A stretch of DNA of 64,000 nucleotides from an uncultured Oscillospiraceae bacterium (lineage in GTDB: Bacteria > Bacillota > Clostridia > Oscillospirales > Oscillospiraceae): contig CANRNF010000002.1 of the NCBI GenBank assembly GCA_947631865.1, positions 1-64,000 of the forward strand. Direction: 5' to 3'. The notes below the pieces were generated by a model, which was not told the origin of the DNA, did no database searches, and worked only from the letters and a program-made list of their open reading frames with translations. A program made the position numbers and the translations under genes. This document shows positions 4,884 to 42,533 of this stretch, piece by piece; the stretch's first letter is position 1; every line of letters begins with the position of its first letter.

Positions 4884-7160
4884 ATGGCAGCGACAAAGAG
4901 CGATCTTGTCATAGTGGAGTCCCCTGCCAAGGCGAAGACCATCGAGCGGTATCTGGGCTCCGGCTATAAAGTCGTGGCCTCCATGGGCCACCTGCGGGAC
5001 CTGCCCAAGAGCACCATGGGCGTGGACATCGAACACGATTTCGAGCCAGACTACCAGCCTGTGAAGGGCCGGGAAGACGTGATCGACAAGCTGAAGAAGG
5101 AATCCTCCAGGGCGGGCATCGTCTATCTCGCGACGGACCCGGATCGGGAGGGCGAGGCCATCTCCTGGCATCTGAAGGAGCTTCTGGACATCCCCGACGC
5201 CAAGGCCCGGCGGGTCACCTTCAACGAGATCACGAAAAACGTGGTCAAGGAGGGCATCGCCAACCCCCGGGACATCGACCAGGACCTGGTGGACGCCCAG
5301 CAGGCCCGGCGCATCCTGGATAGGATCGTGGGCTATAAGCTGAGCCCGCTGCTGTGGCGGAAGATCCGCAAGGGGCTGTCCGCCGGACGGGTCCAGTCCG
5401 TGGCCACCCGGATGGTCCTGGACCGGGAGCAGGAGATCCAGGACTTCAAGCCCGAGGAATACTGGCACCTGACCGCCACCCTCACCACCGATAAGGGCGA
5501 GAGCTTCCAGGCCCTCTACCACGGCACCGAGAAGAAAAAGCAGGAGCTGCACAGCGAATCCGAGGTCAAGGCCATCGAGGACGCGGTGAAGGGCAAGCCC
5601 TTCACCATCGCCGACATCGCCCACGGCACAAAAAAGCGCAGCCCCTCGCCCCCCTTCATCACCTCCACCCTCCAGCAGGAGGCCTCCCGCCGGCTGGGCA
5701 TGACCCCCCGGCGGACCATGTCCATCGCCCAGCAGCTCTACGAGGGCGTGGACGTGGAGGGCGAAGGCACCATCGGCCTTATCACCTATATGCGTACCGA
5801 CTCCCTGCGTCTTTCCGAGGACGCGCTGGCCGCGGCTGGCTCCTTCATCCGCAGCCACTACGGGGAGGAGTATTATTACGGCAAGCCCCGGCGCTACAAG
5901 ACCGGCTCCAACGCCCAAGACGCCCACGAGGCCATCCGCCCCAGCGTCCCCAGCCTGACGCCGGAGATGGTGAAAAAGAGCCTTACCGGCGAGCAGTACC
6001 GGCTCTACCGGCTCATCTGGGGCCGTTTTACGGCCAGTCAGATGGCCAATGCCGTCTATGACAATATCACCGCGGACGCGGTGTGCGAGGGCCATGTCTT
6101 CCGGGCCTACCACTCCAAGATCGCCTTCCCCGGCTACACCGCCGTGTACGACGATAACCGGGAGGACGAGGAGACGGAGGAGGGGGGCAAAAAGCCCCTG
6201 CCGGAACTGAAACAGGGTCAGAGCGTTCAGCTTTCCAAGCTTTCCCCGGAGCAGCACTTCACCGCGCCGCCCGCCCGGTATTCCGAGGCCACCCTCATCC
6301 GGGCCATGGAGGAGAAGGGCATCGGCCGGCCCAGCACCTACGCCCCCACCATCACCACCATCACCGCCCGTGAGTACGTGGTGAAGGAGGGAAAGTACCT
6401 CAAGCCCACCCCCCTGGGAGAGACCGTGACCAAGCTCATGGAGGAGCGGTTCCCGGAGATCGTGGACGTGAAGTTCACCGCCCGGATGGAGGACACCCTG
6501 GACCAGGTGGAGGAGGGCAAGGCCGACTGGAAGAACGTGCTGCACGAGTTTTACGACGGCTTTGAACAGGATCTGGAGAAGGCGGAGGACGCCCTGCAGG
6601 GCGTGCGCATCCGGGTGCCCGACGAGGTGAGCGCGGAGCTGTGCCCCAACTGCGGGCGGAACCTGGTGGTCAAGTCCGGCCGGTTCGGCCGCTTCCTGGC
6701 CTGCCCCGGCTACCCCGAGTGCAGCTTCACCATGCCCCTGGTTACCGAGATGCCCGGCAAGTGCCCCAAGTGCGGCGGCCGCATCTTCAAGCGCACCAGC
6801 AAGAAGGGCTACACCTACTACGCCTGTGAGAAGGGCGCGGAGTGCGGTTTCATGAGCTGGGACGTGCCCACGAAGGAGGTCTGTCCGGTCTGCGGCAAGA
6901 CCATGTTCAAGCTCTCCGGCAAGGGCCAGCGCAAGCCCTTCTGCATCAATGAGGCGTGTTCCAACTTCCTGCCGGAGGAAAAGCGCAGCTACCGCTATCG
7001 CCGGAACAGCGCATCCGCTTCCGGCAGCGGTGACGCCGCCGAGGGCGAGGCGAAGAAGCCGGCGGCCAAAAAGACCGCTGCCAGGAAGTCGACCGCCAAG
7101 AAGCCGGCGGCGAAGAAAACGACCGCAAAGAAGACCACAGCGAAGAGGGGAGAGGCGTGA
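4884..7160 (+). CDS. topA: DNA topoisomerase I, with Lys/Ala/Thr-rich C-terminal tail
   Basis: LVIVESPAKAKTIERYLG, zinc-ribbon C-terminus, tail AKKPAAKKTAARKSTAKKPAAKKTTAKKTTAKRGEA. Confidence 0.96.
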   Translation: MAATKSDLVIVESPAKAKTIERYLGSGYKVVASMGHLRDLPKSTMGVDIEHDFEPDYQPVKGREDVIDKLKKESSRAGIVYLATDPDREGEAISWHLKELLDIPDAKARRVTFNEITKNVVKEGIANPRDIDQDLVDAQQARRILDRIVGYKLSPLLWRKIRKGLSAGRVQSVATRMVLDREQEIQDFKPEEYWHLTATLTTDKGESFQALYHGTEKKKQELHSESEVKAIEDAVKGKPFTIADIAHGTKKRSPSPPFITSTLQQEASRRLGMTPRRTMSIAQQLYEGVDVEGEGTIGLITYMRTDSLRLSEDALAAAGSFIRSHYGEEYYYGKPRRYKTGSNAQDAHEAIRPSVPSLTPEMVKKSLTGEQYRLYRLIWGRFTASQMANAVYDNITADAVCEGHVFRAYHSKIAFPGYTAVYDDNREDEETEEGGKKPLPELKQGQSVQLSKLSPEQHFTAPPARYSEATLIRAMEEKGIGRPSTYAPTITTITAREYVVKEGKYLKPTPLGETVTKLMEERFPEIVDVKFTARMEDTLDQVEEGKADWKNVLHEFYDGFEQDLEKAEDALQGVRIRVPDEVSAELCPNCGRNLVVKSGRFGRFLACPGYPECSFTMPLVTEMPGKCPKCGGRIFKRTSKKGYTYYACEKGAECGFMSWDVPTKEVCPVCGKTMFKLSGKGQRKPFCINEACSNFLPEEKRSYRYRRNSASASGSGDAAEGEAKKPAAKKTAARKSTAKKPAAKKTTAKKTTAKRGEA

Positions 7161-8479
7161 TGGCGGACATCTCCGTGGTGGGCGCGGGCCTTGCCGGCAG
7201 CGAGGCCGCCTGGCAGCTTGCCAAGCGGGGCATGAAGGTGCGCCTTTACGAGATGAAGCCGGAGAAGATGACTCCGGCCCACACGTCGCCGCTGTTCTCA
7301 GAGCTTGTTTGTTCCAACTCCCTGCGGGGGGACGACCTATCGAACGCCGTGGGGCTTCTGAAGGAGGAACTGCGCCGGCTGGGAAGCCTCATCATGATGA
7401 GCGCCGAGAAGCACCGCGTCCCCGCCGGCGGCGCTCTGGCGGTGGACCGGGTGGCTTTTGCCCAGACCATCACCGACGCCATCCGAAGCCACCCCAACAT
7501 CGAGATCGTGGAGGAAGAGGTCACCGACTTCCCGGAGGGGGAGTGCATCATCGCCACGGGGCCCCTTACCAGCGACGGGCTCATCCCGGCCATCGCGAAG
7601 GCCTGCGGCGAGGCGGATTTTCTCCACTTCTTCGACGCGGCCGCGCCGCTCATATCCTTCGAGAGCATAGACATGTCCCGCGCCTGGTTCGGCTCCCGGT
7701 ATGGCAAGGGCACGGCGGACTATATCAACTGTCCCATGGACGCTGAGCAGTACGACGCCTTCGTCACGGAGCTGGCCGCGGCCAAGGAGGCCCCGGTCCA
7801 CGGCTTCGAGGACGCGGGAGTGTTCGAGGGCTGCATGCCCGTGGAGGTCATGGCCCGCCGGGGCCACGACACCCTGCGCTACGGGCCTTTAAAGCCTGTG
7901 GGCCTGAGAAACCCTGAGACCGGCGAGAGCTACCACGCGGTGGTGCAGCTGCGCCGGGACAACGACGAGGGCACGGTCTATAACTTGGTGGGGTTCCAGA
8001 CCCACCTGACCTTCCCGGAGCAGCGGCGGGTGTTCGGCATGATACCGGCCTTGGAAAACGCGGAGTATCTCCGGTACGGGAAGATGCACCGCAACACGTT
8101 TTTGAACGGCCCCCAGCTGCTGGACCGGTATTACCGCCTCCGGTCAGAGCCCCGTATCGGCTTCGCCGGGCAGGTCACCGGCGTGGAGGGGTATGTGGAA
8201 TCCTGCGCCTCCGGCATGCTGGCGGCGCTGGAGGCGGCGAGACGCTTCCACGGTCTGCCGCCCTTGGACTTCCCCCGGACCACGGCCATCGGCGCCCTGG
8301 CGCTGTATGTGTCCGGCGGGGCGGCCAGCGGGGACTTCCAGCCCATGAACGTGAACTGGGGCATCATCGAGCCCGCCGGGGAGCGCATCCGGGGCAAGCG
8401 GGAGCGGAATCTGAAGATCGCCCAGCGGGGCCTGGCGGCCCTGGACGAGATCATAGAAAGAGAGAGGGCGGGCACATGA
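7160..8479 (+). CDS. trmFO: Methylenetetrahydrofolate--tRNA-(uracil-5-)-methyltransferase TrmFO
   Basis: VVGAGLAGSEAAWQLAKRG...SNSLRGDDLSNAVGLLKEELR. Confidence 0.95.
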   Translation: MADISVVGAGLAGSEAAWQLAKRGMKVRLYEMKPEKMTPAHTSPLFSELVCSNSLRGDDLSNAVGLLKEELRRLGSLIMMSAEKHRVPAGGALAVDRVAFAQTITDAIRSHPNIEIVEEEVTDFPEGECIIATGPLTSDGLIPAIAKACGEADFLHFFDAAAPLISFESIDMSRAWFGSRYGKGTADYINCPMDAEQYDAFVTELAAAKEAPVHGFEDAGVFEGCMPVEVMARRGHDTLRYGPLKPVGLRNPETGESYHAVVQLRRDNDEGTVYNLVGFQTHLTFPEQRRVFGMIPALENAEYLRYGKMHRNTFLNGPQLLDRYYRLRSEPRIGFAGQVTGVEGYVESCASGMLAALEAARRFHGLPPLDFPRTTAIGALALYVSGGAASGDFQPMNVNWGIIEPAGERIRGKRERNLKIAQRGLAALDEIIERERAGT

Positions 8480-29272: not shown

Positions 29273-29314
29273 AATAATAGTTAAGAAATAATAAACTTGG
29301 GAGGTACATACAAA

Positions 29315-32300
29315 ATGAAGCTTCGGAAGGTATTGGCATTCATCCTGGCGGCGGCCATGCTGCTGGGACTATGCACGGGCTGCGGAAAAAAGCCCGAGGA
29401 GATGTATGACGAGGCCATGGAGGCCATAGACAGCGGCGACGCCGCCAAAGGCGAGGAGCTGCTGACCAAGGCGGCGGAGAAGGACTATGTCCCCGCCAGC
29501 GCCAAGCTGGGCTATATGTATGCCAGCGGCGACGGCGTGGAGAAGGACCTGGCCAAGGCCGCGGAGATGTACCAGAAGGCCGCGGACGGCGGCGACGGCA
29601 AGAGCATGCTCTACCTGGGCACCATGTACCTCGCGGGCGATGGCGTGGAGAAAGACGAGGCCAAGGCCTTTGAGCTGCTCACCCAGGCGGCGGAGCTGGT
29701 CCCCGAAGCCTATTTGAACCTGGGCATGGCTTACCACTTCGGTGTGGGCACGGAGAAGGACTACGCCAAGGCCGTAGAGTGCTGGACCAAGGGCTTGGAG
29801 GAATGCGAGGAGGGACACCACACGACCTGGTGCGCCGCCAGCTTGGCCGAGTGCTATTACTACGGCATGGGCACGGAGCAGAGCTTTGAAAAGGCCTTTG
29901 AACTGTTTTCCCAGACCGCGGAGGATGGCTACGCCCATTCCCAGCAGTATATGGGCCGGTTCTCTCAGTTCGGCTACGGTGTGGTGGACATAGACTATAC
30001 CCAGGCGGCGGAGTGGTACCAGAAGGCCGCGGATGGCGGCGACGCGGGCGGCATGATATTCCTGGGCGACCTTTATGCGGCCGGCCAGGGTGTGGAAAAA
30101 GACGAGGCGAAGGCCGATGAGCTGTACGGCCAGGCGCTTAAGACGCTCACCGAGGCCGGCGAGGACGCGCGGTATGACAGCGGATACTTCCTCCTGGGCT
30201 ACATCTACAAAAACGGCCTGGGCGTGGAAGAAGACGCCGACAAGGCCCTGGAGTACTTCACTGCCTCTGCGGATATGGGCGACCCGGACGGCATGTTCGA
30301 CCTGGCCCGGTGCCATTACGACGCGGGCGAATACGACGAGGCCCTGGAGCTTTTCACCGAATGCGCGGATATGAACATGCCCGAGGCCATGGTGCAGCTT
30401 GGCTATATGTACGCCGCAGGCCAGGGCGTGGAGCTTGATTACGCCAAAGCTCTGGACCTTTTTGAGCAGGCCGAGGCCCTGGACGACCCCTACGTGTGCT
30501 TCTACCTGGCCGACATGTACATGTACGGTCTGGCCGTGGAGGAGGACTATGTCAAGGCACGGGAGTACTATGAGCAGGTCCTGACCATCCCCGAGACAGG
30601 CGACTTCGCCCTGGGCTACGCCGCGGAGAACGACGGCTGGTTCTATGAGTACGGCACGGGCGTGGAGCAGGATCAGGCCAAGGCCGAAGAGCTCTACGCT
30701 CAGGCTTTCGAAGCCGCCTCGGAGGACGAGGACTACAGCTACAACGCGCTGGTGCTGGGCTACCTTTACATGACCGGGGAGGGCGTGGAGCAGGACTATG
30801 AAAAGGCCCTGGAATACTTCACCGCCGCGGCGGAGGACGATATCTTCGAGGCCGAGTGCCAGGCAGGCGCGATATATCTCATGGGTCTCGGCACGGAGCA
30901 GGACGAGGCCAAGGGCCTGGAGATGCTGGAGGACGCGGCGGAGCGCGGCGTGCCCGAGGCTTATTACTATCTGGGCACCGCCTATGCGGACGGCGACGGC
31001 GTGGAGCGGGACTACGCCAAGGCCCGGGAGCTCCTGGAACAGGGCGAGGCCTTGGGCGTCGCCGACGTCTGCTACTATCTGGCCGACATGTATATGTATG
31101 GCCTGGGCGTGGAGGAGGACTATGTCAAGGCGCGGGAGTACTACGAGCAGTCCATGATCCGCGCCCAGGGCGACGACGCGACTGTGGGCTACGCCGCGGA
31201 GAACGACGGCTGGTTCTATGAGTACGGCATGGGCGTGGAGATGGACAAGGCCAAGGCCTTCGAGCTCTACACCCAGTCGGCGGAGCTGGGCTATGTGGAC
31301 GGCCAGACCTCCCTGGGCCGGTTCTATGACTACGGCTACGGCGTGGTGGACGTAGACGACGCCAAGGCGGCGGAGCTCTATGCCCAGGCCGCGGACCAGG
31401 GCGACGCCGAGGCCATGCTGTACCTGGCCTGGCTCTATGACTTCGGTCAGGGCGTGGAGCAGGATCAGGCCAAGGCCGAAGAGCTCTATGCCCAGGCTTT
31501 CGAGGCCGCCTCGGAAAACGAGGACTACAGCTACGACCAGCTGGTGCTGGGCTACCTTTATCTGGACGGCACCGGCGTGGAGCAGGACTATGCCAAGGCC
31601 CTGGAATACTTCACCGCCGCGGCGGAGGACGACATCTTCGAGGCCGCGTGCGAGGCGGGCACCCTGTATCTCGTGGGTCACGGCACAGAGAAGGACGAGG
31701 CAAAGGGCATTGAGTTGCTCCAGGACGCGGCAGAACACGGCGTGCCAGAGGCCATGTGCGGTCTGGGCTACGCCTATGCCTATGGCGATGGCGTGGAGCG
31801 GGATGACGCCCAGGCGGTCCAGTGGCTCGAAAAGGCCGCGGACATGGGAAATGCCAACGCCATGAACCAGCTTGGCTATATGTACGCCAACGGCGAGGGC
31901 GTGGAGCAGGACTGCGATAAGGCCCTGGAGATATTCACCCAGGTGGCGGCGTCGGACGCGTCCGATTATGACAGAGGCTATGCGCTGTACTGCCTGGGCT
32001 ATATGTACGGACACGGCCTGGGCGTGGAGGAGGACGACGCCAAGGCCGTAGAGTATTACACCCAGGCGGCGGAGCTGGGCGATACGTCGGCCGTGGGCGA
32101 GCTGGGCGACGCCTATGCCCGCGGCAAGGGCGTGGAGCAGGACGGCGAGGAGGCCCTGAAGTGGTACGGCCAGGCCGCGGAGGCCGGTGACCCCGACGGC
32201 CTGGACTGCATGGGCGACATGTATTTCTGGGGCGACGGCGTGGACGTGGACAAGGCCAAAGCCTTCGACTACTACACCCAGGCCGCGGAGATGGGCGACC

Positions 32301-35026
32301 AGGACGCCCAGTTCCAGATGGGCCGGTTCTATGAAAACGGCTACGGCGTGGTGGACAAGGACACGACCCAGGCGGCGGCGTGGTACGAAAAGTCCGCCGG
32401 ACAGGAGGATGCGGAGGGCATGCTGGCCCTGGCGCGGCTCTATATGGACGGCCGCGGCGTGGAGAAGGACGAAGCCAAGGCCGAGGAGATCATAAAGAGC
32501 CTGGTGGAGGACCTCACGGAGAAGGAGGAGACCGACACCCTCGCCCCCACGGAGAAGCGGGTGCTGGCCACCCTTTACGCCCACGGCGGTGTCCTTGACA
32601 AGGACGAGGAAAAGGCCGCGGCCCTCTATGCCGAGGCGGCAGAGGCCGGCAATTACGAGGCGGTGGCCGCCCTGGCCTATGCGTATCGGCACGGCGTGGG
32701 CGTAGAGGAGGACGCCGCCAAAGCGGCGGAACTCTATGCCCAGGCGGCGGAGCACGGGGTCGACAGGGCCATGCTTCTGTTGGGCAACATGTATTACTGG
32801 GGCGAAGGGGTGGACCAGGACTACGGCAAGGCCCTGGAGTTCTACACCCAGGCGGCGGAACTGGACAACGCCGAAGCCCAGAATGAACTGGGCACCATGT
32901 ATTACAACGGCGACGGTGTGGACCAGGACTATGAAAAGGCCCTGGCGTATTTCGAGTGCGCCGCGGATGAGAACAACGAAGACGAGATAAGATCCCGCGC
33001 GCTGTTCGATGCCGCCTATTTCTATCACTTCGGCCTGGGCACGGAAAAGGATATGGATAAGGCCGTGGAACTCTATGCCCAAGCGGCGGAACTGGGCGAC
33101 GACTCCGCCGCGTACAACCTGGGCAGACTGTATGAAGACGGCGAGGAAGTGGAAAAGGACCCTGCCAAGGCCCTGCGATACTTTACCCAGTCGGCGGAGG
33201 CGGGCGACGCCCACGCCATGCGGAAGGTGGGCGACGCCTACATGTTCGCCGACGGCGCGGAGCTTGACAGGGCCAAAGCCCTGGAGTGGTACGAAAAGGC
33301 CGCGGACGCGGGCGGCGAGACCGGCCCGTACATGATCGGCTACTTCTATGAAAACGGCTACGGCGTGGTGGACATCGACCTGGCCAAGGCGGTCGAGTGG
33401 TACGAAAAGGCGGCGGAGAACGACCAGCCGGAGGCCATGTACAATCTGGCCAGATGCTATGCGCAGGGCCTGGGCGTGGAGCAGGACGAGGCCAAGGCCC
33501 AGGAGCTCTACGAGAGCCTGGCGGAGCAGCTCACCGCCGTAGACGAGGAGGAGCTCTCCGGCCGGGAGGCGCGTGTTCTCGCCTGCCTCTATGAACTGGG
33601 CCAGGGCGTGGAGAAGGACGAGGCCAAGTCCGCGGAGCTCATGGCCGCCGCCGCGGAAATGGATGACTGGCGGGCCGTGGACTATCTTGGCCAGTTCTAT
33701 TACTACGCCATCGGCGTGGAGCAGGACAAGGCAAAGGCCGCGGAACTCTACACCCGGGCGGCGGAGCACGGCGTGCCCGGGGCGATGTACAATCTGGGCA
33801 CGATGTATCTCGCCGGCGACGGCGTGAGCCAAGACTACGCCCAGGCGCTGGCGTGGTTTGAAAAGGCGGCGGAGCAGCAGTTCCCCAACGCCTGTTACGC
33901 CCTGGGCTATATGTATGAGTTTGGCATCGGCGTGGAGCAGGACTACGACAAGGCCCTGGAATATTACGAAAAGGCGGCGGACCTGGGCGACGCCTACGCC
34001 ATGGGCCAGCTGGGCTATATGTACCACGTGGGCCACGGCGTGGAGGCGGACCTGGCCAAGGCCGCGGAGTATTACGGCAAAGCCCTCGCCACAGGGGAGG
34101 GCAGCTCGATAGCGGCGTCCAACCTGGCCGGGATGTATCTCTATGGCGACGGCGTGGAGGTGGACAAGGACAGAGCCTTCGAGCTCTATAACCAGGCGCT
34201 GGAGAAGGACGAAGGGAACACCTCGGCCCTGGAGGCCATGGGGGAGTTCTACCTGTACGGCGAGGGCTCGGTGGAGCAGGACCTGGCCCAGGCGGCGGAG
34301 TTCTTTGAAAAGGCCGGAGCGGACGACGTGGAGGCTGCCTACTACCTGGCGAATCTCTATGAGCTGGGCTACGGCGTGGAGAAGGACGAGGCCAAGGCGG
34401 AGGAGATGTTTGCGGACCTGGCCGGCCGGCTCACGAAGGAGGAGGACCCGGACTCCGCCGAGCAGCGCATCCTGGCCTATCTCTATAAGTACGGCAAGGG
34501 CGTGGAGAAGGACGAGGCCAAGGCGGTGGAGCTGCTTTCCGCCGCCGTGGAGGATGACAACTACCAGGCGGCCGACTCTCTGGCGCGGTGCTATCACGAC
34601 GGCGTGGGCGTGGAGAAGGATGAGGCCAAGGCGGTGGAGCTCTATGCGCTGGCCGCAGAGCATGGCGTCGCGTCTGCCGCCGGCGACCTGGGGGATATGT
34701 ATTATCAGGGCGACGGCGTGGCCCAGGACTGCGAAGAGGCGGCCAAGTGGCTCCAGCTGGGCGCGGACATGGGCGACGCCTACTGCCAGGGCTACCTGGG
34801 GTATCTGTATCTGGAAGGCGACGGCGTGGAACAGGACTACGGCGAGGCCCTCCGGCTCTTTGAGGAGGCCATGGACGAGGACGACGAGTCCCTGTACGCC
34901 CTGGGCACGATCTATGAAAACGGCCTGGGCGTGGAGCCGGATATGGATAAGGCCATGGACTATTACACGCAGGCCGCGGACAGGGGCGTGGAGACCGCCG
35001 TCCAGCGGCTGGCAGAAGCGAAGTGA
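29315..35026 (+). CDS. Giant Sel1-like-repeat lipoprotein (~1,903 aa)
   Basis: Lipobox LGLCTGC; continuous repeats of ALGxMYxxGDGVEKDxxKAxEwYxKAAexGD. Confidence 0.93.
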   Translation: MKLRKVLAFILAAAMLLGLCTGCGKKPEEMYDEAMEAIDSGDAAKGEELLTKAAEKDYVPASAKLGYMYASGDGVEKDLAKAAEMYQKAADGGDGKSMLYLGTMYLAGDGVEKDEAKAFELLTQAAELVPEAYLNLGMAYHFGVGTEKDYAKAVECWTKGLEECEEGHHTTWCAASLAECYYYGMGTEQSFEKAFELFSQTAEDGYAHSQQYMGRFSQFGYGVVDIDYTQAAEWYQKAADGGDAGGMIFLGDLYAAGQGVEKDEAKADELYGQALKTLTEAGEDARYDSGYFLLGYIYKNGLGVEEDADKALEYFTASADMGDPDGMFDLARCHYDAGEYDEALELFTECADMNMPEAMVQLGYMYAAGQGVELDYAKALDLFEQAEALDDPYVCFYLADMYMYGLAVEEDYVKAREYYEQVLTIPETGDFALGYAAENDGWFYEYGTGVEQDQAKAEELYAQAFEAASEDEDYSYNALVLGYLYMTGEGVEQDYEKALEYFTAAAEDDIFEAECQAGAIYLMGLGTEQDEAKGLEMLEDAAERGVPEAYYYLGTAYADGDGVERDYAKARELLEQGEALGVADVCYYLADMYMYGLGVEEDYVKAREYYEQSMIRAQGDDATVGYAAENDGWFYEYGMGVEMDKAKAFELYTQSAELGYVDGQTSLGRFYDYGYGVVDVDDAKAAELYAQAADQGDAEAMLYLAWLYDFGQGVEQDQAKAEELYAQAFEAASENEDYSYDQLVLGYLYLDGTGVEQDYAKALEYFTAAAEDDIFEAACEAGTLYLVGHGTEKDEAKGIELLQDAAEHGVPEAMCGLGYAYAYGDGVERDDAQAVQWLEKAADMGNANAMNQLGYMYANGEGVEQDCDKALEIFTQVAASDASDYDRGYALYCLGYMYGHGLGVEEDDAKAVEYYTQAAELGDTSAVGELGDAYARGKGVEQDGEEALKWYGQAAEAGDPDGLDCMGDMYFWGDGVDVDKAKAFDYYTQAAEMGDQDAQFQMGRFYENGYGVVDKDTTQAAAWYEKSAGQEDAEGMLALARLYMDGRGVEKDEAKAEEIIKSLVEDLTEKEETDTLAPTEKRVLATLYAHGGVLDKDEEKAAALYAEAAEAGNYEAVAALAYAYRHGVGVEEDAAKAAELYAQAAEHGVDRAMLLLGNMYYWGEGVDQDYGKALEFYTQAAELDNAEAQNELGTMYYNGDGVDQDYEKALAYFECAADENNEDEIRSRALFDAAYFYHFGLGTEKDMDKAVELYAQAAELGDDSAAYNLGRLYEDGEEVEKDPAKALRYFTQSAEAGDAHAMRKVGDAYMFADGAELDRAKALEWYEKAADAGGETGPYMIGYFYENGYGVVDIDLAKAVEWYEKAAENDQPEAMYNLARCYAQGLGVEQDEAKAQELYESLAEQLTAVDEEELSGREARVLACLYELGQGVEKDEAKSAELMAAAAEMDDWRAVDYLGQFYYYAIGVEQDKAKAAELYTRAAEHGVPGAMYNLGTMYLAGDGVSQDYAQALAWFEKAAEQQFPNACYALGYMYEFGIGVEQDYDKALEYYEKAADLGDAYAMGQLGYMYHVGHGVEADLAKAAEYYGKALATGEGSSIAASNLAGMYLYGDGVEVDKDRAFELYNQALEKDEGNTSALEAMGEFYLYGEGSVEQDLAQAAEFFEKAGADDVEAAYYLANLYELGYGVEKDEAKAEEMFADLAGRLTKEEDPDSAEQRILAYLYKYGKGVEKDEAKAVELLSAAVEDDNYQAADSLARCYHDGVGVEKDEAKAVELYALAAEHGVASAAGDLGDMYYQGDGVAQDCEEAAKWLQLGADMGDAYCQGYLGYLYLEGDGVEQDYGEALRLFEEAMDEDDESLYALGTIYENGLGVEPDMDKAMDYYTQAADRGVETAVQRLAEAK

Positions 35027-35078
35027 TGCTTTTTCCGGCCCATTGACCCTTATGTTTCTGCATTCAGACCATTCAGTT

Positions 35079-35118
35079 TAAGACCTCCCTGCCGCAGACG
35101 CGGCAGGGAGGTTTTTCG
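35079..35118 (+). terminator. Rho-independent terminator
   Basis: aagacctccctgccgcagacgcggcagggaggttttt. Confidence 0.9.
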
Positions 35119-35144
35119 GTTTTCGGGGGCCTTTTTTTCCGGCC

Positions 35145-35219
35145 GAGGATGCAATTCGAGTCGTGATTTTGTCGATTCGAGACAAACCGGTTGACAACTG
35201 GCCCGGAGCGTTCGATATT
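35145..35219 (+). promoter_or_regulatory. Shared promoter/operator cassette P3
   Basis: TTGTCGATTCGAGACAA, TTGACA (35191)-17 bp(CCCGGA)-GATATT. Confidence 0.87.
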
Positions 35220-35227
35220 GTAACAGA

Positions 35228-35662
35228 GTGAACAGGACGATCAATCTCGTGGCGGAAAAAACCACGGAAAAGGCGCTGCAGGTGACCGTGGAACGATCCT
35301 GCCAGGAAATGGGCATCGATCTGGAGGATTTTTCCGTCTACCCCAACACCGATGTGATGTCCAACCGATACGACTTCCTCATTGAACCGATGCACGAGAT
35401 CACGAAATTCGATATGGCAGCGCTGAAGGAAAGCATCTATAAGAATCTCTGTGAGGCGAACGTCAGGATCGTGTAATCCTTCGACGAGCACAAACTGGAT
35501 AAACCGGAGGTGTTCTTCCTGCAGCCGGAGACCTCTTTGCTTTACCACGATATGATGGTGTACCAGGGAGCGTCCATGAACCAGCTCAAGCCGGTGCGCG
35601 TCATCCTGAACGAGCGGCAGAGGAAATTCTTCTTTGGTCTTCTGCAGAAAATGGACGAATAA
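35228..35662 (+). pseudogene. C-terminal remnant of a GH3 (auxin-responsive-promoter-like) acyl-adenylating family gene with one in-frame TAA
   Basis: INLVAEKTTEKALQ...FSVYPNTDVMSNRYDFLIEP...NVRIV*SFDEHKL..FFLQPETSLLYHDMMVYQGASMNQLKPVRVI..FFFGLLQ; same frame before and after TAA 35474-35476. Confidence 0.7.
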
Positions 35663-35740
35663 GACGATCGCTTTTTACAGCGGCAAAGGACGCGAAGGAA
35701 AAAGCCATAACGTAAACGTTTTTTAAGCGGGGTAAGAAAC

Positions 35741-36833
35741 ATGAGCCTGATCGAACTGAAAAACATCACGAAGGACTTCGGCGCCACGCGGGTGCTGGAA
35801 AACGTGACCATGACTGTGGACAAGGGCGACGTGGTGGCCGTGGTGGGCAACTCCGGCTGCGGCAAGACCACGCTTTTGCGGTGCATGAACCTGCTGGAAC
35901 GGCCCACAGCCGGGCAGGTGTTCATCGACGGGGAGGAACTGACGGCCAAGGGCGCGGACGTGGACCGCATCCGCCGGGCGCATGGGCATGGTATATCAGC
36001 ACTTTAACCTCTTCTCCCACCTGTCCGTGATGGAGAACGTGACCATGGCGCCCCGCCTCGTGAACCACATGCCGGCGGACGAGGCGAAGGAGCTGGGCAT
36101 GCGGTATCTGCGCATGGTGGGCATGCAGGAGCGGGCGGACCGGCCCATCGGCCAGCTCTCCGGCGGCCAGAAACAGCGGGTGGCCATCGCCCGGTGCCTG
36201 GCCATGGAGCCGGAGGTGGTGCTCTTCGACGAGCCCACCAGCGCCCTTGACCCCACCATGGTGGACGAGGTGCTGGCGGTGATCCGGAACCTGGTGAAAA
36301 ACGGCCTGACCTGCGTCATCGTGACCCACGAGATGGACTTTGCCCGGAGCGTGGCCAGCCGGGTGGTGTTCCTGGCGGACGGGGGCATCTACGAGCAGGC
36401 GAGCCCGGAGGAGTTCTTCAACGCCCCCAAGGGGGAGAAGACGAAGGCCTTCGTCCGGCGGGTGAAGCTGTTTACATACGAAAGCGCCCTGCATGACCTG
36501 GACCTGTACACCCTGCTGGCCCAGATGCGCACCTATTGCGGCCGGTACGGCTTCTCCAGGCGGGCGGCGACCCGTGTCCAGCTGGTGACGGAGGAGCTGG
36601 TCACCTTCCTGCAGGAGCTGGGCGGCGCCGGGAAGGTGGTCGTGCAGGTCAGCTACGAGGAGAAGACCGGGCGGAAGGAGTTCGTCCTGCGGGACACGGT
36701 CCCCGGCGGGAACCACCTGGAGGATACCCGGCTGGACGAGCTGAGCTCCACCATCGTGAGAAACTGCGCCGGCGAGATCCAGTACACCACGGAGAACGGC
36801 TACAACGTCCTGAGCCTGGATGTTCTGGAGTAA
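35741..36833 (+). pseudogene. Polar amino acid ABC transporter ATPase, +1 frameshift near 35980, with extra C-terminal domain
   Basis: Frame 1 GNSGCGKTTLLRCMNLLE..DRIRR then frame 3 MGMVYQHFNLFSHLSV..LSGGQKQRVAIARCLAMEP; cgccggGcgcatgggc has one extra G relative to DRIRRRMGMVYQ. Confidence 0.85.
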
Positions 36834-36836
36834 TTT

Positions 36837-36866
36837 CGACGGAACCGCTATTATACCCTCAAATAC
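36837..36866. repeat. Fragment of the 79-bp double-hairpin repeat
   Basis: ggaaccgctattataccctcaaatac resembles gccgctattatacctcgaaaatac at 2717. Confidence 0.6.
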
Positions 36867-36926
36867 ACGCATCGAAGGCCCCGTGGGCGTTTGAGATAAA
36901 ATTTTTACAAGAAGGAGAACAAAAAC

Positions 36927-37763
36927 ATGAAGAAACTGATCGCCCTTGCGCTGGCGCTGGTCATGGCGCTGGCTCTGACCGTCCCCGCCCTGGCGGCGGA
37001 GGAGAAACCTAAGATGAAGCTCGGTACGCTGGAAATGCTGTCGCGGACGGAAGATGAGAGGAATTCCCTTACCGACGAGGTAGAAAACTCTGAGGACAAC
37101 AAGTTCCCCCTGATGCAGCAGAATAACATACAGTACATCTGTTACAATACCCTTTCTGAGTTGCTGATGGCCCTGGACGCCGGATACGTTGATGTGGTCC
37201 AGGCAGATGAGCCTATGGTGCAGTACGTCATCTCCCGGAACGACGCCTACGCCGAGTTCCAAGCCGCGGTAGAGCATCAGATAGAGTACAGCATGCTCTT
37301 CCTGGAGGAGGACGGGTTGCTGTGCGACCAGTTCAGCGAGGCTATCAAGGCCATGAAGGACGACGGCACCCTGGACACTCTGGCCGCGGAATACATCGAC
37401 GGCGTGATCGCCGGCGAGGACCCGGAGGCCGTGGCGTTCCCCACCTTTGAGGGAGCGGACACCGTCACCGTGGCAGTGACCGGCGACGTGCCCCCCATGG
37501 ACTACGTGGACGACACCGGCCATGCCGCCGGCTTCAACACCGCCGTGCTGGCCGAGATCGCCCAGCGGCTGGAGCTGAACATCGAGCTCATCCAGGTGGA
37601 CTCCAGCGCCCGCTCCCTGGCCCTTTCCAGCGGCCGCGCCGACGTGGCCTTCTGGGTCCAAACCATTCTCACCTTTAATAAAAACGATGTCCCCGAGGGA
37701 ACGGTCGCCAGCGAGCCCTATTATGCCACTGAGCTCTGCGGCCTTACGCTGGCCGCCGAGTAA
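36927..37763 (+). CDS. Secreted solute-binding-like protein, paralog 1 (apparent permuted SBP_bac_3 order)
   Basis: Signal peptide MKKLIALALALVMALALTVPALAAEEKP; C-terminal VTVAVTGDVPPMDYVDDTGHAAGFNTAVLAEIAQRL. Confidence 0.85.
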   Translation: MKKLIALALALVMALALTVPALAAEEKPKMKLGTLEMLSRTEDERNSLTDEVENSEDNKFPLMQQNNIQYICYNTLSELLMALDAGYVDVVQADEPMVQYVISRNDAYAEFQAAVEHQIEYSMLFLEEDGLLCDQFSEAIKAMKDDGTLDTLAAEYIDGVIAGEDPEAVAFPTFEGADTVTVAVTGDVPPMDYVDDTGHAAGFNTAVLAEIAQRLELNIELIQVDSSARSLALSSGRADVAFWVQTILTFNKNDVPEGTVASEPYYATELCGLTLAAE

Positions 37764-37822
37764 CGAATCGGAGGCCCCAACGGGCTTTTGAGATAAAATT
37801 CATTCAAAAGGAGAAAAGAAAC

Positions 37823-38671
37823 ATGAAGAAACTGATCGCCCTTGCGCTGGCGCTGGTCATGGCGCTGGCTCTGACCGTCCCCGCCCTGGCGGCGGAGGAG
37901 AAGCCTTCGATGAAGGTCGGCATGCTGGAGCTGCTGGCCCAGTCGGAGCAGGAGATCAACGACATCGAGGATGAGTACAGTACCACCGACGAGGCGGAGG
38001 CCCCGCTCAAGGAGAACGACGTTTCGCTCGTCTATTATCACAGCCTGGCCGAGCTGCTGATGGCCCTGGACGCCGGGTATATCGATCTGGCCCAGGCGGA
38101 CGACCCCACGGTACAGTACGTCCTGTCCCGGAACGACGCATACGCCGAGAACCATCCCGCTCCCGAGATAGAGCAGGCGGTGGAATACAGCATGCTCTTC
38201 CTGGAGGAGGACGCCGAGCTCTGCGACAGCTTCAACGAGGCCATCACCGCCATGAAGGACGACGGCACCCTGGACGAGCTGGCCGCGGCACATATCGACG
38301 GCGTGATCGCCGGGGAGGACCCGGAGGCCGTGGCGTTCCCCTCCTTTGACGGCGCCGAGACCGTCACCGTGGCGGTGACCGGCGACGTGCCCCCCATGGA
38401 CTATGTGGACGATACCGGCCATGCCGCGGGCTTCAACACTGCTGTTCTGGCTGAGATCGCCCAGCGGCTGGAAGTGAACATTGAGCTCATCCAGGTGGAC
38501 AGCGGCGCCCGTGCCCTGGCCCTGGCCAGCGGCCGCGCGGACGTGGTCTTCTGGGCCCAGTCCTATACCGGTGAAGTCGCGATAGCGGATCTGGACATCC
38601 CCGAGGGCACGGTGGCCAGCGAGCCCTATTATACCACTGTGCTCTGCGGCCTCGTGCAGGGCGCTGAGTAA
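37823..38671 (+). CDS. Secreted solute-binding-like protein, paralog 2
   Basis: Tandem paralog of 36927; N-terminal ~100 aa near-identical to paralog 3. Confidence 0.87.
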   Translation: MKKLIALALALVMALALTVPALAAEEKPSMKVGMLELLAQSEQEINDIEDEYSTTDEAEAPLKENDVSLVYYHSLAELLMALDAGYIDLAQADDPTVQYVLSRNDAYAENHPAPEIEQAVEYSMLFLEEDAELCDSFNEAITAMKDDGTLDELAAAHIDGVIAGEDPEAVAFPSFDGAETVTVAVTGDVPPMDYVDDTGHAAGFNTAVLAEIAQRLEVNIELIQVDSGARALALASGRADVVFWAQSYTGEVAIADLDIPEGTVASEPYYTTVLCGLVQGAE

Positions 38672-38729
38672 CAAATCAGAGGCCCCCACGGGCTTTTGAG
38701 ATAAACACTATCAAAAGGAGAACAAAAGC

Positions 38730-39572
38730 ATGAAGAAGATCATCGCCCTTGCGCTGGCGCTGGTGATGGCGCTGGCCCTGACCGTCCCCGCCCTGGCGGC
38801 GGAGGAGAAGCCTTCCATGAAGGTCGGCATGCTGGAGCTGCTGGCCCAGTCGGAGCAGGAGATCAACGACATCGAGGATGAGTACAGTACCACCGACGAG
38901 GCGGAGGCCCCGCTCAAGGAGAACGACGTTTCGCTCGTCTATTATCACAGCCTGGCCGAGCTGCTGATGGCCCTGGACGCCGGGTATATCGATCTGGCCC
39001 AGGCGGACGACCCCACGGTACAGTACGTCCTGTCCCGGAACGACGCCTATGCCGAGGAGCATCCCGAGATCGAGCATACGATAGCATACAGCATGCTCTT
39101 CCTGGAGGAGGATGGGTCGCTGCGCGACAGCTTCAACGAGGCCATCACCGCCATGAAGGACGACGGCACCCTGGATGATCTGGCCGCGGAATACATCGAC
39201 GGCGTGATCGCCGGCGAGGACCCGGCTCCCGTGGCGTTCCCCACCTTTGACGGCGCCGAGACCGTCACCGTGGCCGTGACCGGCGACGTGCCTCCCATGG
39301 ACTACGCGGACGACACCGGCCACGCCGCCGGCTTCAACACCGCCGTGCTGGCCGAGATCGCCCAGCGGTTGGAGATCAACATCGAGCTGGTCCAGGTGGA
39401 CAGCGGCGCCCGTGCCCTGGCCCTTTCCAGCGGCCGCGCCGACGCGGCCTTCTGGGCCCGGTCCGCTGCCGCTGACCCCGTCATTGAAGGGCTGGATATC
39501 CCCGAGGGCACCATCACCAGCGAGTCCTATTACTCCGCCGTGCAGTGCTCCCTTGTGCTGGCCGCCGAGTAA
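38730..39572 (+). CDS. Secreted solute-binding-like protein, paralog 3
   Basis: Tandem paralog. Confidence 0.87.
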   Translation: MKKIIALALALVMALALTVPALAAEEKPSMKVGMLELLAQSEQEINDIEDEYSTTDEAEAPLKENDVSLVYYHSLAELLMALDAGYIDLAQADDPTVQYVLSRNDAYAEEHPEIEHTIAYSMLFLEEDGSLRDSFNEAITAMKDDGTLDDLAAEYIDGVIAGEDPAPVAFPTFDGAETVTVAVTGDVPPMDYADDTGHAAGFNTAVLAEIAQRLEINIELVQVDSGARALALSSGRADAAFWARSAAADPVIEGLDIPEGTITSESYYSAVQCSLVLAAE

Positions 39573-39581
39573 TACATTAGA

Positions 39582-39608
39582 GGCCCGGCGGTCTCCCGCC
39601 GGGCCTTT
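39582..39608 (+). terminator. Strong hairpin plus T-run between paralogs 3 and 4
   Basis: GGCCCGGCGG-TCTC-CCGCCGGGCC-TTT. Confidence 0.7.
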
Positions 39609-39640
39609 GAGGGAAACACTTTCAAAAGGAGTCCTGTAAC

Positions 39641-40480
39641 ATGAAAAAGATCATCGCCCTCGCGCTGGCGCTGGTGACGGCGCTGGCCCTGACCGTCCCC
39701 GCCCTGGCCGCGGGAGAGGGGTCCGAAATGCGGTTCGGTATGCTCACGAACCTGACGTTGAGCGAGGAAGAATTAAACGAAGTGACCGACAGGATCAAAA
39801 CAGAGGAGCCTGACAGCAGGTTCCCTATGCTCAAAGAGTATGATGTGGAGACCGCTTATTATCATAGCCTTTCCGAGCTGCTGATGGCCCTGGACGCCGG
39901 ATATATCCAGCTCGCCGTAGTCGACGAGCCAACGGTGCAGTACGTCCTGTCCCGGAACGACGCCTATGCCGAGTTCCAGCCCCTGGCAGATCAGCCGATA
40001 GCGTATAGCATGCTCTTCCTGGAGGAGGACGCAGAACTCTGCGACAGCTTCAACGAGGCCATCAAGGCCATGGAGGACGACGGCACCCTGGACGCTTTGG
40101 TGGAGACCTATATCGACGGCGTGGTCGCCGGGGAGGACCCGGAGGCCGTGGCGTTTCCCGCCTTTGAGGGTGCCGAGACCGTCACCGTGGCCGTGACCGG
40201 CGACGTGCCCCCCATGGACTACGTGGATGACGCCGGCGACGCCGCCGGCTTCAACACCGCCGTGCTGGCCGAGATCGCCCAGCGGCTGGGCGTGAACATC
40301 GAGCTGGTCCAGGTGGACAGCGGCGCCCGGACCCTGGCTCTTTCCAGCGGCCGTGCCGATGCAGTCTTCTGGGTCAAGAAGCATATCTCCAGTGATACGA
40401 GCGAAGCCCCTGAGGGCACGGTGGAAAGCGAACCCTATTATACCACCCAGCTTTGCGATCTGGCGCTGAGCGCGGAGTAA
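39641..40480 (+). CDS. Secreted solute-binding-like protein, paralog 4
   Basis: Tandem paralog, most diverged N-terminal half. Confidence 0.85.
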   Translation: MKKIIALALALVTALALTVPALAAGEGSEMRFGMLTNLTLSEEELNEVTDRIKTEEPDSRFPMLKEYDVETAYYHSLSELLMALDAGYIQLAVVDEPTVQYVLSRNDAYAEFQPLADQPIAYSMLFLEEDAELCDSFNEAIKAMEDDGTLDALVETYIDGVVAGEDPEAVAFPAFEGAETVTVAVTGDVPPMDYVDDAGDAAGFNTAVLAEIAQRLGVNIELVQVDSGARTLALSSGRADAVFWVKKHISSDTSEAPEGTVESEPYYTTQLCDLALSAE

Positions 40481-40484
40481 AGCC

Positions 40485-41159
40485 ATGGGCTTTATTGAGA
40501 ACTTTCAGAATATCCTGCTTTCCGGCAAGAACGCCGCCACCCTGGCGGCGGGCCTGTGGATGACGCTGAAGATCTCGGCGCTGTCCGTCATAGCGGGCAC
40601 GCTGCTGGGGGCGCTGCTGTGCAAGCTCCGGACGGGCCGGTTCAAGCCCCTCCGGGGCCTGGCGGCGCTGTACATATCCATCGCCCGGGGCACGCCGGTG
40701 CTGATGCTGCTGATGCTGATGTACTATGTGGTGTTCGCCCGGGCGAAGGTTCCCGCCTACATCGTGGCGGTGACGGCATTCTCCCTCAACGTGGCGGCCT
40801 ATATGGCCGAGGTCATGCGCACGGCGCTGATGGGCGTGGACCCCGGCGAGGTGGAGGCGGCCCGGACCCTGGGCCTCAGCCGGTGGCAGGCGTTTTTCCA
40901 CGTGACTCTGCCCCAGGCGGTGGTCATGGCGAAGCCCACCTATCAGTCCACTATCATCAACCTGATCCAGTGGACCAGCGTGGTGGGCTATGTGACCATC
41001 ACGGACCTCACCCGCGTGGTGAACAACATCTCTGCCCGGACCATGCAGCCGCTGTTCATGATCCTGGTGGGCATGGCCCTGTATCTGGGCCTGTCCTACC
41101 TGGTGACCGGCATTTTCTGCCTCACCGGCCGGAAGAACGATAAAAAACAGAACGCATGA
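40485..41159 (+). CDS. Amino acid ABC transporter permease (HisM/GlnP type)
   Basis: ARGTPVLMLLMLMYYVVF...EVEAARTLGLSRWQAFFHVTLPQA EAA loop. Confidence 0.92.
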   Translation: MGFIENFQNILLSGKNAATLAAGLWMTLKISALSVIAGTLLGALLCKLRTGRFKPLRGLAALYISIARGTPVLMLLMLMYYVVFARAKVPAYIVAVTAFSLNVAAYMAEVMRTALMGVDPGEVEAARTLGLSRWQAFFHVTLPQAVVMAKPTYQSTIINLIQWTSVVGYVTITDLTRVVNNISARTMQPLFMILVGMALYLGLSYLVTGIFCLTGRKNDKKQNA

Positions 41160-41240
41160 CCCGGGACCGCCCCGGTCCAGGCCGGCGGCCGGAAAACAAA
41201 GGATACGAAAAAGGATTATTTTAGAGGAGGATCACAAAAA

Positions 41241-42428
41241 ATGAAAAAGCTGTTAGCTGTCATCCTGAGCGCGGTGCTCATGCTGGGCGCCTGCGCCTTT
41301 ACGGAAGGCCCGGCGGCCGGCACCTGCTACTGCCTGTCCGGCATCTCCGTGGTGGCGGGGGAGACGAACATCGACCTGTCCGACGTGGAGATCGGCGTGG
41401 ACGTGATGGAGGGCGAGCCGGGCGCCGTGGTGGTGCACGTGGACAACGGCGAAGAGCATGTCTGCGAGATCGGAGTCACCCAGATAGACGGCCTGTACAT
41501 CATCCATCTCGACAGCCCCACCCTTGGCCACAAGGACTATGCCATCGACCCGGTCCTGGAGCTGTCCGAAGACCTGGACGATCTGCGCGACGCGCTGATC
41601 GAGAAGCTGCAGGGCATGGACACCCAGGCGGCGGCCCAGAGCATCTTTGACTTCTTTGACCGCGCGGAGGCGGCCGCGGTGCAGGCTGCCGAGGCCCCTG
41701 AGGTCACGGAGGCTCCCGTGGAGACCGCCGTACCCGAGGTCGTCATGAGCGGCGACATCACGGAGATACTGGAGGACAGCATCAATCCCGTGAGGACCGT
41801 CACCATCGACGAGGATATCACCGACGAGGATACCGGCGAGCTGCTGGTGCCCGCGGGTGACTATAAGGTGTCTTCCTTCACCGTGGATAAGGAGATCGTG
41901 CGCAGGCTGCTGGGCAATATGACCCTGAACGGCGCGCCTATCCCGAACGCCGAGATGCTGCTGGACGAGAACGCGGACGCCCAGCTGGTGGGCGCCATCT
42001 ATGAAGGCCTGGACGATCCGGGAGCCGGCCTTGGCTATATGTTTATCACTGCTTCCGACGACGAGACCATGGGCTATAACGGCCTGTACTATATCCTGTC
42101 CACCGACGAGGACGGCAAGACTCTCGCCTTTGATATCCTCGGCGGCACCGGCGAGAGCAAAATGGAGGTGCAGTTCGCCCTGAACGAGCACACCGTCGAG
42201 CACACGACCTTCGGTCCTGACGCTGTCGACATGGACAATATCATCAACGTCAGCGAGCTGGTCGCCGCCGGCGAGGAGAACCCGCTGCTGCCGGATCTGC
42301 AGGTGCTGCTGGGCGACGCCATCGCGGCGGCCCTCGCCCCCATGGCGGCGCAGTTCCCCATGGATGAGTTCTCCGTGGATGAGTTTTCTATGGATGATTT
42401 CCCCATGGAGGAAGTCCCCGCGGAATAA
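41241..42428 (+). CDS. Uncharacterized lipoprotein
   Basis: MKKLLAVILSAVLMLGAC lipobox; C-terminal FPMDEFSVDEFSMDDFPMEE repeats. Confidence 0.75.
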   Translation: MKKLLAVILSAVLMLGACAFTEGPAAGTCYCLSGISVVAGETNIDLSDVEIGVDVMEGEPGAVVVHVDNGEEHVCEIGVTQIDGLYIIHLDSPTLGHKDYAIDPVLELSEDLDDLRDALIEKLQGMDTQAAAQSIFDFFDRAEAAAVQAAEAPEVTEAPVETAVPEVVMSGDITEILEDSINPVRTVTIDEDITDEDTGELLVPAGDYKVSSFTVDKEIVRRLLGNMTLNGAPIPNAEMLLDENADAQLVGAIYEGLDDPGAGLGYMFITASDDETMGYNGLYYILSTDEDGKTLAFDILGGTGESKMEVQFALNEHTVEHTTFGPDAVDMDNIINVSELVAAGEENPLLPDLQVLLGDAIAAALAPMAAQFPMDEFSVDEFSMDDFPMEEVPAE

Positions 42429-42533
42429 GCGCGTAAAGTCTTTTCGTGTGCGGCGGCCCGGGTCTGCGATCCCGGCCGCCGCATATGCTCCGGCGGGACG
42501 TATAAGCAACAAATTATCATGAGGAGAAACCAA

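Follow-up and report, generated by a model that had tools for sequence, protein, structure and literature searches.

The window, that is, the whole stretch of 64,000 nucleotides analysed here (positions 1 to 64,000 of contig CANRNF010000002.1, from an uncultured Oscillospiraceae bacterium), carries a tandem array of four genes for solute-binding proteins (SBPs), adjoined by genes for a PAAT-type permease and ATPase (Table 1). All four paralogs have the same predicted layout, namely a signal peptide, a small (C-terminal-type) lobe with the old C-terminal helices, a linker of ~20 residues, and an N-terminal-type lobe. Paralogs 2-4 are 67-72 % identical to paralog 1. The signal peptides are of the AxA type and have no lipobox Cys; that this might be a peculiarity of the array was rejected, as the lipobox is missing from further SBPs of this genome too. 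Each SBP gene is preceded by a repeated intergenic unit that contains a short inverted repeat (GGCCC..GGGC) and an AAAGGAG ribosome-binding site, and the unit is also present in G011, a genome of the same genus. An Rfam scan of positions 34500-42500 gave no match.

The permease has a HEQRo_perm_3TM match of 77.6 bits (cut-off 42.2), and the array in G011 ends with a permease that is 99 % identical to it. The ATPase gene is interrupted in the assembly by a one-base frameshift near position 35978, which could be real or an assembly error; an intact 363-aa homolog is found at the same place in G011 (L082:4715-5806). The C-terminal extension of the ATPase shows a weak, below cut-off likeness (E 0.003-0.006) to HATPase_c_2, which is anti-sigma kinase-like. 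Among the neighbouring sequences, a remnant with an internal stop lies at ~35230-35663, the G011 counterpart of which is intact (~600 aa, GH3-like by eye; L082:2846-4636). A 1909-aa lipoprotein-like ORF of Sel1/TPR-like repeats (29297-35026) adjoins the operon and has a homolog upstream of the G011 array.

Table 1. Coordinates of the SBP array, its partners and related loci (lobe assignments are predictions)
Feature	Location	Strand	Details
ATPase gene, PAAT-type ABC ATPase with ~120-aa C-terminal extension	35741-36833	+	ABC_tran match of downstream part
ATPase C-terminal extension, ~120 aa	window 36468-36830; L082:5441-5803; L223:5395-5790		weak HATPase_c_2 likeness
Repeated ~58-bp intergenic unit	36834-36926, 37764-37822, 38672-38729, 39573-39640	+	precedes each SBP gene
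Permuted SBP paralog 1, 278 aa	36927-37763	+	signal peptide 36927-36998; small lobe and old C-terminal helices 36999-37400; large-lobe N-half 37461-37760
Permuted SBP paralog 2, 282 aa	37823-38671	+	small-lobe half ~37895-38302; large-lobe N-half ~38360-38668
Permuted SBP paralog 3, 280 aa	38730-39572	+	small-lobe half ~38802-39203; large-lobe N-half ~39261-39569
Permuted SBP paralog 4, 279 aa	39641-40480	+	small-lobe half ~39713-40117; large-lobe N-half ~40178-40477
Permease subunit (BPD_transp_1; HEQRo/PAAT family), 224 aa	40485-41159	+	Pfam and NCBIfam matches
All-in-one ABC importers, 1132-1140 aa	G000:C25 (L080:3390-6812), G000:C3 (L081:2925-6323)		own genome

Order of the lobes

A preliminary description of the locus had proposed that the lobe order is reversed in all four paralogs, and the family profiles bear this out in 4/4. 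The start of Pfam SBP_bac_3 (positions 1-62/69) aligns to paralog residues ~180-249 with 58.7-65.4 bits (cut-off 26.4), whereas the end of NCBIfam TIGR01096 (positions 140/153-250) aligns to residues ~54-158. Aligned separately, each half matches the opposite half of a normal SBP. The colinear order of SBP_bac_3 (large-lobe N-half, small lobe, large-lobe C-terminal helices) is thus absent, and because the order found is small lobe, C-terminal helices, large-lobe N-half, we class the paralogs as a permuted variant of SBP_bac_3 (PF00497) rather than as plain members. By these alignments the first half is a complete small lobe together with the C-terminal helices, which points to a precise circular permutation and not to a simple lobe swap.

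Two profiles were compared in hhalign, one of window-type proteins (the four window paralogs, four from G011, and L025, L085 and L120) and one of normal-order SBPs. The native order gave two crossed matches (query 48-137 to template 191-279, and query 144-259 to template 49-154) with scores of 110 and 104, the next alternative scoring 26. When the C-terminal half was moved in front, there was one colinear match over 213 columns (score 199.5, probability 99.8 %, single-template E 2.2e-29). The first half alone matched the C-terminal lobe of normal SBPs with a probability of 98.8 % (single-template E 5.9e-17). Similarly, the independent relative L019 matched TIGR01096 in two stretches in native order (149 bits) and in one stretch when rotated (164 bits). 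As a control, a normal-order SBP from the own genome was given the same rotation, and its score fell from 150 to 131 bits. The rotated window paralogs did not merge into a single stretch against NCBIfam, because their divergent pocket segments break the alignment; for these the family profile was required. The merging of crossed half-matches on rotation is strong sequence evidence for a circularly permuted type II SBP_bac_3 architecture, as the preliminary description had suggested.

A phmmer search of the PDB matched one chain across the lobe junction, the tandem SBD1-SBD2 of GlnPQ (6h30), in which the alignment runs from the end of SBD1 into SBD2. Among the best matches there was no permuted SBP_bac_3 chain, and only this tandem protein spanned the junction.

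Chain-opening points and the binding pocket

The small domain of GlnBP comprises residues 90-180 and the large domain residues 5-84 and 186-224, with hinges at 85-89 and in the 180s (PMC13229503). When placed on E. coli GlnH, the chain of the window-type proteins (class A) stops at ~residue 95 and resumes at ~101. Three chain-opening points were found among the permuted proteins (E. coli GlnBP numbering), at ~96-100 (class A), ~167-173 (class B) and ~127-136 (class C), all of them inside the small domain and between the hinges. Because of this position of domain and hinges, we infer that both hinge strands should survive the cut, with both new termini on the small lobe; ~20 residues would bridge the original termini, which both lie in the large lobe. 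A cut that removes one hinge crossing was rejected, as on the GlnBP map the C-terminal strand runs through the hinge to ~residue 95.

AlphaFold models from 8-row alignments were of low confidence, with a mean pLDDT of 54 for window paralog 4 and 44 for L019. In these models the order of predicted strands and helices is at most compatible with a two-lobed type II fold, and a Foldseek search with the low-confidence paralog 4 model gave binding proteins at TM ~0.25, OpuAC (2b4m) first. Since the alignments are shallow and the pLDDT values low, the models are unreliable, and therefore the claim about the fold rests on sequence.

T70, R75 and D157 (GlnBP numbering) are what we take to be the residues of the alpha-amino-acid pocket. 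T70/R75 lie on one half of the permuted chain and Q115/T118/D157 on the other, and these positions are kept in nearly all class A, B and C rows near the normal-order SBPs. Most class A, B and C proteins outside the window subfamily retain the pocket positions of normal members, with both halves contributing, which speaks for closure of the permuted chains into a functional pocket.

The window subfamily itself, termed FW type, comprises the window, G011, L084, L085, L086 and L120. Here a variable loop after an FW motif replaces the T-x-x-x-x-R stretch, the usual carboxylate-binding motif. T70 and R75 are lost from the window paralogs, whereas the alpha-amino-acid pocket is largely present in non-FW relatives. 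In the window and G011 copies the D157 equivalent is the only pocket position kept, so a standard alpha-amino acid bound through the usual arginine is an improbable ligand. The permeases of FW-type operons are closely related (219-250 bits to the window permease, as opposed to 53-146 for most other loci), and several of these operons encode an ATPase of ~363 aa that carries a C-terminal extension. After these, the permeases most similar within the genus are parts of fused proteins.

Variation among the eight paralogs of the window and G011 is concentrated in two segments, which map to opposite sides of the pocket. Pairwise identity averages 0.37 for residues 25-70 and 0.24 for residues 244-256, against 0.79-0.89 for the intervening lobe cores. 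Between pairs, the similarity of the two segments is poorly correlated (Spearman 0.30, p 0.12). For example, paralogs 2 and 3 are identical in residues 25-70 and have an identity of 0.53 in the last segment, and two G011 C29 copies have 0.28 in the first segment and 0.97 in the last. In these eight sequences, the variable segments look as if they had been shuffled between tandem copies. The G011 array also includes a truncated, stop-bearing SBP remnant (L083:595-849), a sign of ongoing copy-number change.

Distribution and recurrence of the permuted order

Searches were carried out over sampled genomes of the genus, family, class and phylum, followed by rule-based classification of the ORFs in the collected loci. 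Before redundancy removal and the relabelling of three entries, this gave 58 class A, 28 class B and 5 class C modules; a further 17 modules came from fused transporters, and 50 proteins had the normal order. Of the 243 genomes in the class sample, at least 16 had a standalone class A match and at least about 27 a class B-like match, both numbers being rough lower bounds counted by eye. Relatives in gut Clostridia, which the preliminary description had thought possible, are indeed present, but that range is too narrow. Among the sampled families of the window's class and phylum, many have proteins classified as permuted SBP_bac_3 members, which represent several origins and three cuts. PAAT-type permease and ATPase genes are neighbours of most permuted genes for which there is enough flanking sequence.

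The own genome also encodes a class B protein (L010/L219), and its operon C88 (L219:2606-6036) combines one normal-order and one class B permuted SBP with a single permease and a single ATPase. In the all-in-one importers of this genome (Table 1), two permuted SBP modules, a permease domain, an ATPase domain and an extension form a single chain; fused transporters of 970-1150 aa in other genomes of the genus and family likewise have two modules in the same permuted register. One fused transporter is flanked by two ~529-aa ORFs (L080:1804-3393, 6833-8419) that by eye are cation-symporter-like with an N-terminal regulatory domain.

In a tree of the rotated sequences, normal-order and permuted proteins are intermingled. 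Parsimony gives 17 order changes, counted without direction, 8 of which are forced by well-supported branches; without the eight longest rows there are 15, of which 7 are forced. These are quick trees, to which recombination between halves could add conflict. With the same rows removed, a single clade was rejected for class A (p-AU 6e-22), for class B (1.4e-5) and for all permuted proteins (1.6e-9), the last result rejecting one ancient permutation. The clades tested were defined by topology and not picked from the tree. According to these trees, the order has changed at least 7 times within the family. The closest pair after rotation, L124 (permuted) and L191 (normal), have the same family code and are 79 % identical over 216 aligned residues, and each has a 223-aa permease downstream.

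Proposed explanation and relation to known systems

Taking the evidence as a whole, we consider it highly probable that the four proteins are extracytoplasmic binding subunits of a PAAT ABC importer with a circularly permuted SBP_bac_3 fold. Direct support comes from the gene order, the two halves and their order, the pocket residues of non-FW permuted relatives, the conserved operon context and the recurrence. The single chain would open directly behind hinge strand 1, within the small lobe (GlnBP ~96-100), the linker would bridge the old N- and C-termini of the large lobe, and the two-lobed 'Venus flytrap' cleft would be preserved together with both hinge strands. One permease and one ATPase would be common to all four paralogs, and divergence in the two pocket-side segments might allow different solutes to be bound and presented to the same translocator. 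As for the recurrence, the simplest route would start with a duplication that yields a fused tandem SBP, the outer lobes of which are then lost; the spanning match to 6h30 and the two-module fused transporters in the same permuted register are as this route expects. Points against the explanation are the low pLDDT and TM values, the frameshifted ATPase gene, and the absence of T-x-x-x-x-R and lipobox from the window subfamily.

Solute binding could serve another role than import, for instance sensing at the cell surface together with the HATPase-like ATPase extension, for which the weak HATPase_c_2 likeness, the missing lipobox and the unusual pocket might be cited. We regard this as unlikely, as an ordinary permease and ATPase of the PAAT-importer type form one gene cluster with the SBPs. 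It is quite unlikely that the paralogs form a domain-swapped dimer or mixed oligomer, in which the lobes of different copies would pair up, small with large. The majority of permuted relatives occur as single genes adjoining one permease and one ATPase, and the ~20-residue linker joins the termini of what is one lobe in GlnBP (large domain 5-84, 186-224; PMC13229503), even though several paralogs are co-encoded here and a cut-out from a tandem SBP, as in the 6h30 match, would give the same half-order. The frameshift in the upstream ATPase gene and the remnant copy in G011 might be taken as signs that a tandem SBP left these genes behind and that they are decaying or without function. This seems very improbable given four intact ORFs, the intact ATPase in the same operon of G011, and dN/dS values between paralogs (0.28-0.64 for the whole gene, 0.26 for the large-lobe core), which argue against decay. 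The reading of the proteins as ordinary co-linear SBPs with an unrelated first domain has practically no probability left, as no supporting point was found for it and the first half matches the normal C-terminal lobe both in hhalign and in TIGR01096 (positions 140-250).

Beyond the permuted importer itself, we tentatively suggest that lobe order in SBP_bac_3 might be fluid, repeatedly gained and lost, and that in the array permutation might place the specificity segments at the gene ends and so enable their re-pairing; this is possible, though we think it doubtful. The two pocket segments would be near neighbours in a normal chain (GlnBP ~66-80 and ~101-130) and would lie at opposite gene ends once permuted, such that crossovers between tandem copies in the conserved middle would re-pair them and yield new binding proteins.

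Compared with canonical SBP_bac_3 proteins (PF00497; GlnH/GlnBP, HisJ, LAO, FliY; cluster F, type II), both lobes are still recognisable by sequence, the operon partners are the same, and the pocket residues are kept in most permuted relatives. In contrast, the permuted chain would start and end in the small lobe, with reversed lobe order, and the window subfamily lacks the T-x-x-x-x-R motif. In the tandem GlnPQ (SBD1-SBD2-TMD; 6h30), also a PAAT importer, consecutive SBDs give the same lobe junction, but each SBD has the normal order.

Natural circular permutation is known from the type I protein TpMglB-2 (Tp0684; 'Type Ic / Cluster Bc') and its relatives, which include Gram-positive ones and likewise have relocated termini (PMC4990184). 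That protein belongs to a type I sugar-binding family of different fold and Pfam family, for which a single permutation was described; the window paralogs have no match to such a family, and only SBP_bac_3 is above the Pfam cut-off. Among two-lobed type II proteins, natural permutation is documented for the set OpuAC/ProX/ModA/CysB (CPSARST, PMC2395249). Those are distant families (<24 % identity) compared by structure, whereas the permutation of SBP_bac_3 is found within a single sequence family, whose permuted and normal members reach 79 % identity; no OpuAC-family match was found in the window paralogs (Pfam, E <= 0.1). The preliminary description knew of no account of the reversed order. 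This holds for SBP_bac_3 in searchable papers, as no description was found in the open-access literature, but not for the other binding-protein families cited above. What we regard as new is that, within a single sequence family, the permutation recurs and has more than one cut point.

SBP_bac_3 is among the most used binding-protein families, both as a model of import and as a scaffold for sensors. Domain searches report its permuted members as split matches, which may be misread as fragments. Natural pairs that are so similar in sequence, and opposite in topology, could reveal how chain order affects folding, hinge motion and docking, and thanks to the recurrence the duplication-then-trimming model of circular permutation can be tested in living families.
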